DNA from: Rhabdophis nuchalis
Lineage: Eukaryota > Chordata > Lepidosauria > Squamata > Natricidae
Assembly: GCA_039707465.1 (NCBI GenBank)
Contig: CM077648.1
Span: 22,444,119-22,508,118 of the forward strand
Reading direction: 5' to 3'
DNA length: 64,000 nucleotides
The translations under genes and the position numbers were made by a program. Below the pieces are notes generated by a model, which saw only the letters and a list, made by a program, of their open reading frames with translations, was not told the DNA's origin and ran no database searches. Positions 14,748 through 59,672 of the stretch are shown one piece after another (position 1 is the first letter of the stretch; each line of letters begins with the position of its first letter).

Positions 14748-15175
14748 AGAAGAGGGAGTCAAGCTATTCTCCAAAACACCTGAAGGCAAGACAAGAAGCA
14801 ATGGATGGAAACTAATCAAGGAGAGAAGCTACCTGGAATTAAGAAGAAATTTCGTGACAGAACAATTAACCAATGGAACAATTTGCCTCCAGAAGTTGTG
14901 AATGCTCTAACAATGGAAGTTTTTAAGAAGAGATTGGACAACCAATGGTATAGGGCAGTGTTTTTCAACCTTGGCGACTTTAAGTCCTGTGGATTTCAAC
15001 TCCCAGAATCCCCAAGCCAGCTACGGGGCTGGGGGATTCTGAGAGTTGAAGTCCACAGGACTTAAAGTCGCCAAGGTTGAGAAACATTGGTATAGGGTTT
15101 CCTGCCTGAGCAGGGGGTTGGACTAGAAGACCATGAAGGTCCCTTCCAGCTGTTATTTTATTCTATTCTAAACTT
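14748..15175 (+). mobile_element. CR1 LINE 3' end, split by a hAT MITE
   Basis: CR1 C-terminal codons (SNGWKLIKE-like) and 3' UTR run from 14748 to 14955, stop at an inserted hAT element, and resume at 15090 with GTATAGGGTTTCCTGCC. The tail is TTCTA-like (15163-15172). Confidence 0.85.
14956..15089. mobile_element. hAT-type foldback MITE inside CR1
   Basis: Left CAGTGTTTTTCAACCTTGGC, right GCCAAGGTTGAGAAACATTG. Perfect 8-base duplications GTATAGGG at 14948-14955 and 15090-15097, which are CR1 sequence, so this insertion is later than the CR1. Confidence 0.93.
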
Positions 15176-16513: not shown

Positions 16514-16956
16514 CAGTGATGGCGAACCTATGGCACGCGTGCCACAGGTGGCACACGGAGCCATTCGGCAGGGCACGCGAGGCGTTGTCCTGTCAGCTGG
16601 CCAGCGTGCATGTACGTGCTGGTCAGCAGATTCAGCCATTTTTCAAGCCATTTTTCACCCTCTCCAGGCTTTATAGGAGCCTGGGGAGGGCGAAAACAGC
16701 TCTCTGGAGGCTTTAGGGAAGCTCCTGAAGCCTCTGGAGGGCCTCCAAGTGGGCTCTTTTCGCCCTCTCCAGGCTCCTATAAAGCCTCTGGAGCCTGGGG
16801 AGGGCGAAAAAAACATGTAAAAAATGGGGGGGGGGAGCGCCTATCATGCACACTGGGGGGGGGCGCATTGCATTATGAGTGCAGCACGCCGGCGCACGAT
16901 GCCACTGTGCTCCCCATTCTTATGGCACGTGAGCCTAAAAAGGTTCGCCATCACTG
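16514..16956. mobile_element. hAT element, CAGTGATGGCGAACC family
   Basis: Left CAGTGATGGCGAACCTATGGCACG, right AGGTTCGCCATCACTG. Duplications ATCAAAGA (16506-16513) and ATCTAAGA (16957-16964), 7 of 8. The interior is GC-rich with inverted AGGCTCC/GGAGCCT blocks. The ends resemble the widespread OposCharlie-like hAT group; that name is from memory of the terminal motif. Confidence 0.88.
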
Positions 16957-18413: not shown

Positions 18414-18548
18414 CAGGGATGTCCAAACTTGGGAACTTTAAGACTCGTGGACTTCAACTCCCAGAATTCCCCAGCCAGCTATGCTGGCTAGGGAATTCCG
18501 GGAGTTGAAGTCCACGAGTCTTAAAGTTCCCAAGTTTGGACATCCCTG
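18414..18548. mobile_element. hAT-type foldback MITE
   Basis: Left CAGGGATGTCCAAACTTGGG, right CCCAAGTTTGGACATCCCTG, arms complementary almost throughout. Perfect duplications GCTTAGAC at 18406-18413 and 18549-18556. One of the best preserved copies. Confidence 0.95.
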
Positions 18549-52244: not shown

Positions 52245-53956
52245 GAAGAAGATGATAAGCAACAGGGAGAAAGCAGAACTATTTAACTCTTTTTTTGCAT
52301 CTGTCTTTACACAAAGGGATAAAACAGTCCAACCAATCAAAAACAGCACCACAAAAATCAGATTAGGAACACAAGTTGAAATAGGGAAGAAAATGGTAAG
52401 TGAGCATCTGTCTGCCCTGGACGAGTTCAAATCACCAGGACCGGATGGATTACATCCCAGGGTTCTGAAGGAACTGGCAGATGAGATCTCAGAACCACTG
52501 AACTATATCTTTCAGAGCACCGGGGAATTGCCAGAAAAGAGCTGATGTGGTTCCCATCTTCAAAAAAGGAAAAAAAAACAGATCCAGGAAACTATAGACC
52601 CATCAGCCTGACCTCAATACCAGGAAAGATTCTGGAAAAGATAATTAAACAACAAATAAGTGAACACCTAGAAGCAAACAAAGTAATAGCCAAAAGCCAA
52701 CATGGGTTTGTCAAAAACAGATCATGCCAGACGAATCTAATTGCATTCTTTGACAAAGTGACAAAATTAGTGGACCAGAGGAATGCTGTCGATATAATTT
52801 ACTTGGACTTCAGTAAGGCATTTGATAAAGTAGACCATAACCTACTATTAGATAAAGTAGAAAATTGTGGGTTAGACAGCACCACCACCAAATGGATTCG
52901 CAACTGGCTGACCAACCGCACTCAACGTGTAGTCATCAATGGAACTGCATCTACATGGAAGGAAGTATGCAGTGGAGTCCCCCAAGGCTCTGTTTTAGGC
53001 CCAGTACTCTTTAACATCTTCATCAATGATTTGGATGAGGGGATAAATGGGGAACTCATCAAATTTGCAGACGACACCAAGCTGGCAGGAATAGCCAACA
53101 CTCCAGAAGATAGGCTTAAGATACAGAAGGATCTAGACAAACTTGAACATTGGGCACTATCTAATAAAATGAAATTCAATTGTGAAAAAAGTAAGGTTCT
53201 ACATTTAGGCAAGAAAAACAAAATGCACAAGTACAGTATAGGTGGTACCTTGCTCAATAGTAGCAACTGTGAGAGGGATTTTGGAATCCTAGTGGACAAC
53301 CATTTAAATATGAGCCAGCAGTGTGCAGCAGCTGCCAAAAAAGCCAACACAGTTCTAGGCTGCATAAACAGAGGGATAGAATCTAGATCACGTGAAGTGT
53401 TAATGCCACTGTATAGTGCCTTGGTAAGGCCACACTTGGAATACTGCATACAGTTTTGGTCGCCACGATGTAGAAAAGACGTGGAGACTCTGGAAAGAGT
53501 GCAGAGAAGAGCAACCAAGATGATTAGGGAGCTGGAGACTAAAACATATGAAGAAAGGTTGCAGGAGCTGGGTATGTCTAGTTTGATGAAGAGAAGGACC
53601 AGGAGAGACATGATAGCAGTATTCCGATATCTCAGAGGGTGCCACAAAGAAGAGGGAGTCAAACTATTCTCCAAGGCACCTGGGGGCAGGACAAGAAGCA
53701 ATGGGTGGAAACTAATCAAGGAGAGAAGCAACTTAGAACTAAGGAGAAATTTCCTGACAGTTAGAACAATTAATCTCTGGAACAGCTTGCCTCCAGAAGT
53801 TGTGAATGCCCCAACCCTGGAAGTCTTTAAAAAGATGTTAGATAGCCATTTGTCTGAAATGGTATAAGGTTCCTGCCCACGCAGGGGGTTGGACTAGAAG
53901 ACCTACAAGGTCCCTTCCAACTCTGCTATTGTATTGTATTGTATTGTATTGTATTG
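52245..53956 (+). mobile_element. CR1 LINE, longest copy, 5'-truncated
   Basis: About 1.7 kb of an element whose full length is usually near 4.5 kb. It includes the RT domain, C-terminal region, UTR with GGGGGTTGGACTAGAAGACC and an (ATTGT)n tail at 53932-53956. ORF1 and the endonuclease are absent. It lies within another DNA element. Confidence 0.93.
52252..53867 (+). pseudogene. CR1 reverse transcriptase, one frameshift
   Basis: Two frames: 52252-52545 (AELFNSFFASVFTQRD, FKSPGPDGLHPRVLKELAD) ending at a premature TGA, and 52545-53867 in another frame (440 codons). The second carries DPGNYRPISLTS, YLDFSKAFDKVDH, SGVPQGSVLGPVLFNIFIND, the catalytic FADDTK box and [13 protein letters not shown] to SHLSEMV. 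A small indel near 52535-52545, next to an AAAAGAGCTGATG stretch, breaks the protein. RT boxes A, B and C are all intact, so the copy is young. Confidence 0.93.
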
Positions 53957-56277: not shown

Positions 56278-56395
56278 CAGGGGTCTCCAACCTTTGCAAC
56301 TTTAAGTCTGAAGGACTTCAACTCCCAGAATTCTCCAGCCAGCTTTGGGAGCTGAATTCCTTCAGACTTAAAGTAGCAAAGGTTGGAGACCCCTG
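56278..56395. mobile_element. hAT-type foldback MITE
   Basis: Left CAGGGGTCTCCAACCTTTGC, right GCAAAGGTTGGAGACCCCTG; perfect duplications CACTACAG at 56270-56277 and 56396-56403. Confidence 0.95.
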
Positions 56396-58112: not shown

Positions 58113-58333
58113 ATATATATACTGGCATTGCTGGCTTCGGGGATTTTCCTGTGTATATAGCATGGAGATGTTATTGCAACGTTTCGGCAAGATCTCACTT
58201 GCCATCATCAGGCAGGCTTTTGTCACTGTCGCAAAAAAGCAAAGGCCCAGGCCTGATGATGATGGGGGTGATCCCATCGAAACGTTGCAAAAACACTTTA
58301 ATTTTACACGGGAAAAGACCCGAATAAACCAAA
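58112..58333. mobile_element. inverted pair of Penelope-like element ends
   Basis: Minus strand 58225-58122 and plus strand 58246-58333 share one design: GCCTGATGATG, a short hairpin (GGCAAG..CTTGCC, or GATGGG..CCCATC), GAAACGTTGCAA, then TACACAGG/ACACGGG and AAAA..CCCGAA. They face away from a ~20-base spacer near 58226-58245. The CTGATGA-hairpin-GAAAC pattern is known from terminal regions of Penelope-like retroelements. No coding part is present. Confidence 0.6.
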
Positions 58334-58370
58334 ATCTACATATATATATTTATATGAGAGAATATTTCTA

Positions 58371-58530
58371 TGCTCAAGGCATAGAAAGGCTTGCCTGATA
58401 TGCTGGAAAGTGCCGGTTCAAATCCCAGTAGAAGGAGTATGGCCAGCTGAAGAGGGCTAATAAGCCCGAAATGGATCCATCCTGGTCTCTTATTTATTAA
58501 ATCAGCCCTTAAAAATCTAACATATATATA
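58371..58530 (+). mobile_element. tRNA-like segment joined to hammerhead ribozyme
   Basis: GGCATAGAAAGG (about 58379-58389) and a B-box-like GGTTCAAATCC (58415-58425, 10 of 11 to the Pol III B box) are followed after 15 bases by the hammerhead at 58441-58487, then CTTATTTATTAAATCAGCCC and a TATATA/ATCT tail. It could be a SINE or the end of a Penelope-like element; both boundaries are uncertain. Confidence 0.5.
58441..58487 (+). ncRNA. hammerhead ribozyme, type I, minimal stem III
   Basis: All invariant positions are present. Stem I: GGCCAG (58441-58446) pairs with CTGGTC (58482-58487), five Watson-Crick pairs and one G-U. Core CTGAAGA (58447-58453) fits CUGANGA. Stem II: GGGCT (58454-58458) and AGCCC (58463-58467) with tetraloop AATA. 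Then GAAA (58468-58471); A58471 opens stem III and pairs with T58480, followed by T-A and G-C pairs, with a tiny loop. C58481 is the H17 cleavage residue, so the cleavage triplet is ATC. The minimal stem III is typical of hammerheads in Penelope-like elements and retrozymes, which may act best as dimers. Activity is inferred, not shown. Confidence 0.85.
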
Positions 58531-58532
58531 TA

Positions 58533-59672
<1,140 letters not shown>

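Follow-up and report, generated by a model that had tools for sequence, protein, structure and literature searches.

A complete hammerhead ribozyme motif in a high-copy element with a tRNA-like head in Rhabdophis nuchalis, with a Penelope-like element as the probable source of its copying enzyme

The stretch of Rhabdophis nuchalis DNA analysed (64,000 nt; referred to as the window) contains a complete type I hammerhead of 47 nt, found by reading the sequence. The motif recurs in great numbers throughout the genome, within a unit of about 340 nt that bears a tRNA-like head; units follow one another directly or lie head-to-head in pairs. With a probability of about 0.8, we take it to be the ribozyme of a high-copy non-autonomous retroelement, of the kind described as metazoan non-LTR retrozymes or as tRNA-headed hammerhead SINEs, that is copied by the enzyme of a Penelope-like element (PLE) on both strands of its target.

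Results

The hammerhead motif in the window

The original prediction had placed a complete hammerhead, with every conserved core base, at window positions 58441–58487 of the forward strand, and both its limits and its core were found to be correct (Table 1). Stem I (58441–58446 with 58482–58487) has the six pairs then claimed, one of them G-U. The five pairs claimed for stem II become four with a 6-nt loop in the layout of the Rfam family HH9, although the fifth, a U-A pair, can form (pairing probability 0.906). For stem III, given earlier as three or four pairs, three were counted plus a GATC loop, because a fourth would leave a loop of only 2 nt. Positions 58471 and 58480 form the A15.1-U16.1 pair, and cleavage is predicted to occur between 58481 and 58482.

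Table 1. Features of the window copy and its immediate surroundings (window coordinates)
Feature	Position	Strand	Basis
Type I hammerhead ribozyme motif	58441..58487	+	Sequence; HH9 28.1 bits; chance 0.0013; model R1 80.3 bits (the motif itself is among the sequences used to build R1)
Stem I, 5′ strand (partner 58482-58487)	58441..58446	+	Sequence, HH9 layout
Catalytic core CTGAAGA	58447..58453	+	Sequence; core conserved among copies
Stem II, 4 pairs (fifth U-A possible), loop TAATAA	58454..58467	+	Fold, HH9 layout, compensatory changes among copies
GAA (58468-58470), then stem III (AUG/CAU, GATC loop); palindrome of 10 nt, ATGGATCCAT	58468..58480	+	Sequence, fold, HH9 layout
C17 (58481) and stem I, 3′ strand (58482-58487)	58481..58487	+	Sequence
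Main piece of the putative retrozyme, corresponding to unit A from about 234 via the cut to site 1: hammerhead preceded by part of the tRNA-like head and followed by the 3′ end TTAAAAATCTAACA	58372..58522	+	97% to unit A
Inverted remnant of 13 nt (reverse complement of AATATTCTCTCAT, positions 176-188 of unit A) whose end is 3′ site 2	58354..58366	-	13-mer once in window; inverted end of this kind also at other loci
tRNA-like head, B box GGTTCAAATCCC	58415..58426	+	Sequence
PLE-like tail fragment 1, CTGATGATGG...GCCGAAACGTT, start codon	58136..58213	-	Sequence comparison, BLAST
PLE-like tail fragment 2, with the ACACGGG..CCCG stem-loop at its end; fragment 1 lies head-to-head with it	58251..58330	+	70.5% over 78 aligned columns, E 3e-5
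AT/TATC/GATA microsatellite adjoining the 3′ end of the element	58523..58776	.	Sequence

The motif had been thought very unlikely in random sequence, and this agrees with the rate estimated here. Among 400,000 Markov-model draws around a planted CTGANGA, 17 reached stems of at least five (I), four (II) and three (III) pairs; with 30 CTGANGA in the window, 0.0013 full motifs are expected per window by chance. Motif scans of both strands of the 64-kb window revealed no second full hammerhead and, with one core mismatch allowed, the runner-up scored 9 against 16. No Rfam family matched the window at its gathering score. HH9 aligned to the motif with 28.1 bits (gathering score 52) and an E-value of 0.0071 in the 64 kb when all families were used, or 2.9e-5 for a 261-nt stretch only. 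The covariance-model scan advised in the original prediction thus fell short by its score and was favourable by its E-value.

Two other kinds of repeat were noted in the window. One shares TGGCCAGCTGA with the stem I region of the ribozyme and is present at 16603, 26534, 40242 and 43481; these sites were considered as ribozyme copies and rejected, since their context differs and no hammerhead was found in them. The other consists of long palindromes (241–323, 14981–15064, 18440–18522 and 56304–56369) that matched mir-5408 on both strands, and in some cases mir-3160, below the gathering score; they may be DNA-transposon hairpins.

Folding was predicted with RNAfold, which is blind to tertiary contacts. 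Folded as a hammerhead, the 47-mer had an energy of -13.3 kcal/mol (minimum -13.8 kcal/mol), with a pairing probability of about 0.1 for stem III, and the single molecule was no more stable than its shuffled versions (z -0.90). Two 47-mers were predicted to co-fold as a double hammerhead that shares a 10-bp stem III derived from the palindrome AUGGAUCCAU, at -43.2 kcal/mol versus 2 x -13.8 kcal/mol; this modelled fold is in line with the notion of good cleavage by dimers. When 58349–58511 was folded as one strand, stem I was out-competed (pairing probability 0.001), the hammerhead-constrained structure (-38.7) lying 5.9 kcal/mol above the minimum (-44.6).

Copies of the motif and conservation of its structure

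A pattern with fixed core and loops, in which four pairs were left free (three in stem II, one in stem III), had 12,893 exact matches in the 1.918-Gb genome (6349 and 6544 by strand), that is, one per 149 kb. The reversed control pattern had none in the same genome, and pattern searches of virus and prokaryote contig collections gave none. Among the first 100 matches listed, all on contig C1, 95 retained all four free pairs as standard pairs. Watson-Crick pairs occupied 391 of their 400 free-pair cells, versus 260 when the partners were shuffled, G-C and A-T being both common and swapped between copies. A genome search with window positions 58400–58530 yielded at least 48 matches (1839 first-look candidates, of which the best 40 were scored). 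Of these matches, 40 were 98–100% identical over at least 123 of the 131 bases and were spread over many contigs; some copies at these best-scored places were 99–100% identical on different contigs. Twenty samples of 10 kb, taken at hand-picked round coordinates, contained no match to the units of families A and B described below or to the PLE tails, where about 1.3 motifs were expected, and a model scan of the same samples gave no convincing match (best 11.6 bits, E 2).

The compensatory pairing put forward in the original prediction cannot be seen in a single copy, but it is evident across copies. BLAST pieces covering the ribozyme numbered 80, in 40 loci; 75 were free of indels and 30 were distinct. 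In these 30 copies, which were selected without regard to structure, 96.9% of the 390 cells were paired (91.3 when shuffled) and 32 cells were altered on both sides (10.0 when shuffled), values that none of 500 shuffles reached. Both-side changes were present in six pairs, a number reached by 4 of the 500 shuffles, and slid structures paired in 16.7–39.7%. Further pair types were not above the shuffles in the same 30 copies (10 versus 10.7). A model built from these copies had 101 matches (53 distinct) with 95.8% of cells paired and 67 cells changed on both sides, in an alignment that itself leans towards the structure. Covariation across copies thus supports the three-helix type I layout that opens at stem I, and the stems are conserved among copies, a point for which the original prediction had advised a check.

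For a count of conservation, four rows from a duplicated locus were removed, leaving 76 copies that cover the ribozyme. Gapless alignment was possible for 71, of which 62 keep the core and 50 keep the core and all 13 pairs. Differing cells amounted to 11 of 930 (1.2%) at the 11 invariant core positions, 161 of 2219 in the stems and 284 of 5338 (5.3%) outside the ribozyme; the Fisher p of 4e-10 for core against outside overstates independence, because the cells are not independent and part of the signal is subfamily structure. None of 20 loci had an Rfam match at the gathering score; below it, HH9 matched other copies 12 times (24.0–35.2 bits) in six of seven loci. We regard the hammerhead motif as confirmed to be real.

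The repeated unit and its tRNA-like head

The distance from cut to cut in tandem copies was 343 nt at locus L030, 347 nt at L031 and, for family B, 339 nt at L027, with a GC content of 0.41–0.43. An interval of 334 nt at L010 was rejected as a unit, as it is split by a microsatellite. From the 3′ end of the hammerhead, the unit continues with an AT-rich stretch, TTAAAAATCTAACA (site 1), a middle part, GAAAATATTCTCTCAT (site 2) and the tRNA-like head, after which the hammerhead follows. Direct tandem hammerheads, a size within about 150–450 bp and a GC content below 50% are among the traits by which non-LTR retrozymes are defined, and the units have these three. They lack coding capacity, the longest open stretch in two doubled units being 76 aa, with 63 aa as the sense-strand maximum.

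Two families, A and B, are identical at 249 of 355 aligned columns. The head of family A contains the boxes TGGCTGAAGG at 232 and GGTTCAAATCC at 277, 45 apart, and that of family B TGGCTGAATGG at 232 and GGTTCGAATCC at 276, 44 apart. An A and a B box at tRNA spacing characterize tRNA-derived SINEs. Neither RF00005 nor ARAGORN recognized a tRNA in the head, so that the term ‘tRNA-derived’ is based on the two boxes and the distance between them. The motif TTTT was absent from the sense strand of both units and occurred seven and eight times in the antisense strand; its absence from the sense strand is weak evidence, because base composition predicts just 1.4 and 1.9 occurrences. Contrary to expectation, the circular fold of the two units was no more stable than that of shuffled sequences (z 0.32 and -1.18). 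This counts against reading the element as a retrozyme, because retrozyme circles are reported to be stable.

The window copy and its surroundings

The BLAST match of the main piece extends to 58530, into the AT repeat. The copy starts inside the tRNA-like head, so that its A box is lost or altered: the A-box region (58370), which reads TAGCTCAAGG in many other copies and TGGCTGAATGG in family B, is changed, and the A-box score of the window copy was not significant. The B box alone occurs twice in the window against 0.58 expected and is weak by itself. The 13-nt remnant appears to be the partner of a head-to-head pair. The window copy is a solo, truncated member of such a pair beside a PLE pair, and is probably neither transcribable on its own nor mobile. 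The recent function suggested in the original prediction accordingly applies to the family rather than to this partial copy.

Both PLE-like fragments contain CTGATGATG..CGAAACGTT and an ACAC[G/A]GGAAAA..CCCGAA stem-loop, and no Rfam hammerhead was found in either. The sequence AAAATCTA(A)CATATATATA, present at 58331–58348 and at 58512–58530, was considered as a target-site duplication and rejected: the right copy is the 3′ end of the element, and the left one is the flank of the PLE tail. A likeness of this degree was reached by 2 of 9110 pairs with the same separation, and the motif common to the PLE tail flank and the 3′ end of the element is possibly a shared start motif of the reverse transcriptase. 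The microsatellite beside the element is palindromic, a long (TATC)n followed by (GATA)n at 58523–58772, of about 250 bp. Further away, an ORF of 460 aa (52485–53867, forward strand) codes for a CR1-type reverse transcriptase (RVT_1, 4e-38); among the 120 matches listed of 7,927, the highest identities were 67–69% (Podarcis, Anolis and Salvator) and the lowest E-values were those of birds.

Ends and joins of the inserted copies

The ends of the copies were mapped in 39 loci, the window included, which gave 122 pieces. Two sites took up 68 of the 88 free 3′ ends (site 1, 42; site 2, 26) and 3 of the 36 free 5′ ends. Because the search query favoured site 1, fairer counts exclude the query copies; the two sites then hold 42 of 58 free 3′ ends versus 2 of 18 free 5′ ends. 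The corresponding figures for family B were 25 of 29 and 2 of 13. The site windows, which were set after inspection of the data, cover 14% of the unit; the free 3′ ends that fell off both numbered 20 of the 88, or 16 of the 58 once query copies are excluded. By our repeat measure, a dinucleotide-like repeat adjoined 34 of the 88 free 3′ ends and 6 of the 36 free 5′ ends; the AT content of the 30 nt beyond the ends was alike (0.70 at 3′ and 0.71 at 5′ ends).

Pieces were joined 5′-5′ in 32 cases, 3′-3′ in seven and head-to-tail in 13. Similarly, when the first 100 motifs were taken in order of position, close neighbours on opposite strands were arranged minus-then-plus, that is, 5′-5′, in 12 of 13 cases, and six of ten close neighbours on the same strand were 336–345 nt apart. 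Pieces more than 20 nt longer than one unit numbered 22 of 122, the longest reaching 721 nt. The cut site was crossed by 82 of the 122 pieces (fetched query copies cross it by construction), and a single piece of the 122 had its 5′ end at unit positions 1–5. These two counts suggest that the RNA was copied mostly uncut at this point or religated, that is, from circular or multimeric templates.

Penelope-like neighbours and the enzyme that copies the element

A PLE-like piece was present 0–112 bp from the element in 13 of the 39 loci, including the window, a figure that stands without a background rate and for which three loci (L001, L003 and L029) depend on pieces of 19–44 bp alone. Close PLE pairs were joined 5′-5′ in four of four cases, as are most opposite-strand pairs of the element. 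Behind the PLE-like tail at L046 and L048 there is a frame of 380 aa in which YVDD was recognized by eye. The L048 ORF matched GIY-YIG with 19.7 bits (E 0.0011), under the Pfam cut-off of 22.6, and had no RVT_1 match. In a genome search with this protein, all 108 scored places (the best 108 of 7984 first-look candidates) had 90–100% identity; five lie in open frames of 1011 aa, three of these 2972 bp apart on the same strand. Near-identical PLE copies were observed at G000:C3:7434019-7444695 and C301:108050-113797, arranged in tandem and continued on the opposite strand, with frames of up to 1011 aa; they point to a young and possibly active PLE.

According to the report on the anole PLE PAc (PMC11167929), the ORF of PAc begins at stem II of its hammerhead, and its reverse transcription begins in an AC-rich stem-loop 111–118 bp into the ORF, at AT-rich cuts and on both strands alike. 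In vitro, the protein cleaves DNA that is rich in AT and extends the two strands, with starts internal to the RNA; mutants of PAc's own hammerhead are described there as having no effect on insertion in vitro, with no reads ending at its cut. The PLE-like fragments of the window fit the PAc layout, their loop being nearer the start codon than in PAc.

The joins also bear on a different explanation, in which a tRNA-headed SINE is moved by an ordinary LINE (of the CR1, L2 or RTE/Bov-B type), the hammerhead is kept for some other reason and twin priming accounts for the inverted pairs. When a LINE primes in this way, the same 5′-5′ topology results, so this topology alone is compatible with it as well; the tRNA-like boxes and the 460-aa CR1-type ORF with RVT_1 in the window also speak for a LINE. 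Twin priming should, however, begin the inverted part at scattered internal places, not at two fixed outer ends, whereas the outward ends observed fall at one pair of sites whichever way a copy points, and the PLE pieces near the element show identical joins. On these ends and joins, we judge movement by a LINE to be unlikely. Amplification at the DNA level, as a dispersed or SINE-derived satellite in which RNA cleavage has no role, would account for tandem copies at 336–347 nt and has a precedent in the SINE-derived satellites known in squamates (PMC10702118), but it is very improbable: the copies are interspersed over many contigs, their core is conserved and their stems are compensated, and two preferred 3′ ends with head-to-head joins are unexpected of satellites. 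The notion that the hammerhead belongs to the PLE itself, as part of a pseudo-LTR and with no separate element, is scarcely tenable. In its favour, hammerheads are known from PLEs (PMC11167929, PMC7761336), and by BLAST the window element is 42 nt from the end of a PLE piece. Against it, the motif that PLE pieces bear at the start of the ORF is a different one of their own, tandem copies of the ∼340-nt unit have no PLE piece detected between them, and 26 of the 39 loci have no PLE piece.

Discussion

The reading we prefer, a non-autonomous retroelement copied by a PLE enzyme, would work as follows. RNA polymerase III would transcribe the element from the tRNA-like A and B boxes, and tandem copies would give rise to multimeric RNA. 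The hammerhead would be weak alone, because its stem III has just three pairs, and would cut as a dimer by means of the palindromic stem III; RNA of unit length would then be ligated into circles. The putative reverse transcriptase/GIY-YIG protein of the resident PLE would nick DNA at AT or CA repeats and prime on both strands. Copying would begin mostly at either of two positions in the RNA and would often continue past the cut and around the unit, and the two cDNAs would be joined 5′ to 5′. Vertebrate retrozyme hammerheads have been described as working better in dimers and as giving circles (PMC7229834), and PLEs have been named as likely movers of animal retrozymes (PMC7761336, section 8). 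What is new here is a genomic footprint that fits, and unites, the published steps of dimers and circles, of the PLE as mover and of extension on two strands.

We also lean, with some reserve, towards a broader proposition: that reptiles hold living retrozymes, in the form of thousands of tRNA-headed hammerhead elements, and that their RNA, as circles or multimers, is taken up by a PLE protein that primes both strands at two fixed RNA sites. If true, the genome would record thousands of retrotranspositions by a PLE in trans, a step that has been proposed as likely (PMC7761336, section 8). Hammerheads of amniotes have been described as few, conserved and probably domesticated copies (PMC7229834, PMC6155905); in contrast, there are here about 13,000 exact motifs together with PLE frames of up to 1011 aa and the same 5′-5′ joins. 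Together, these make the question of PLEs as movers directly testable, and the element offers a reptile source for the intronic hammerheads of amniotes.

Among the papers listed by the literature searches there was none on a hammerhead or retrozyme family of such a kind in reptiles, which is not proof, as most subscription papers lie outside their coverage; the squamate papers searched mention neither ribozymes nor hammerheads, and a paper on squamate SINEs (PMC7983390), searched for ribozymes, has no mention of them. The repeat may already be catalogued under another name. The squamate SINEs Squam1/Sauria, Squam2 and Squam3 resemble it in being tRNA-headed and, in some cases, arranged in tandem (PMC10702118, PMC7983390, PMC13295347). 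Squam3 differs in being related to CORE/L2, and Sauria in ending in (ACCTTT)n; these distinctions follow published descriptions and cover Squam3 and Sauria. The Sm-alpha SINE-like element of schistosomes is likewise described as a tRNA-derived SINE with a hammerhead and a copy number above 10,000 (PMC2770079); the element studied here is that of a vertebrate, its head is unrecognised by tRNA models, and the likeness is one of description.

With the amniote hammerhead HH9 (RF02275) the motif shares stems of six, four and three pairs, a loop II of 6 nt and the core except N7; 7 of the 13 pairs differ on both sides and yet still pair. HH9-type hammerheads are described as conserved intronic copies (PMC6155905), whereas those found here are dispersed and ∼13,000 in number, and the score of the motif lies below the HH9 gathering value. 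The anole PAc is similar as a retroelement with a hammerhead, AT-rich targets, internal starts and extension of both strands; it differs in that its ribozyme overlaps the start of the ORF and is protein-assisted (PMC11167929), while the hammerhead of Rhabdophis belongs to a distinct unit that has no long ORF.

The last comparison is with the metazoan non-LTR retrozymes, as described for the axolotl (Rtz_331 and Rtz_353), the mussel and the coral (PMC7229834). The present element differs from them in its reptile host, the tRNA-like A and B boxes, the many head-to-head pairs and the two preferred 3′ ends; moreover, its circular fold is not unusually stable. It resembles them in its type I hammerhead, its tandem unit of ∼340 nt (330 and 350 bp in the axolotl) and its GC content below 0.5, as well as in a very short stem III with a palindromic tetraloop, a likely action as dimers and a genome that also harbours PLEs. 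The original prediction had already remarked on the short stem III and on the likeness to retrozymes and PLEs, and both points are upheld.
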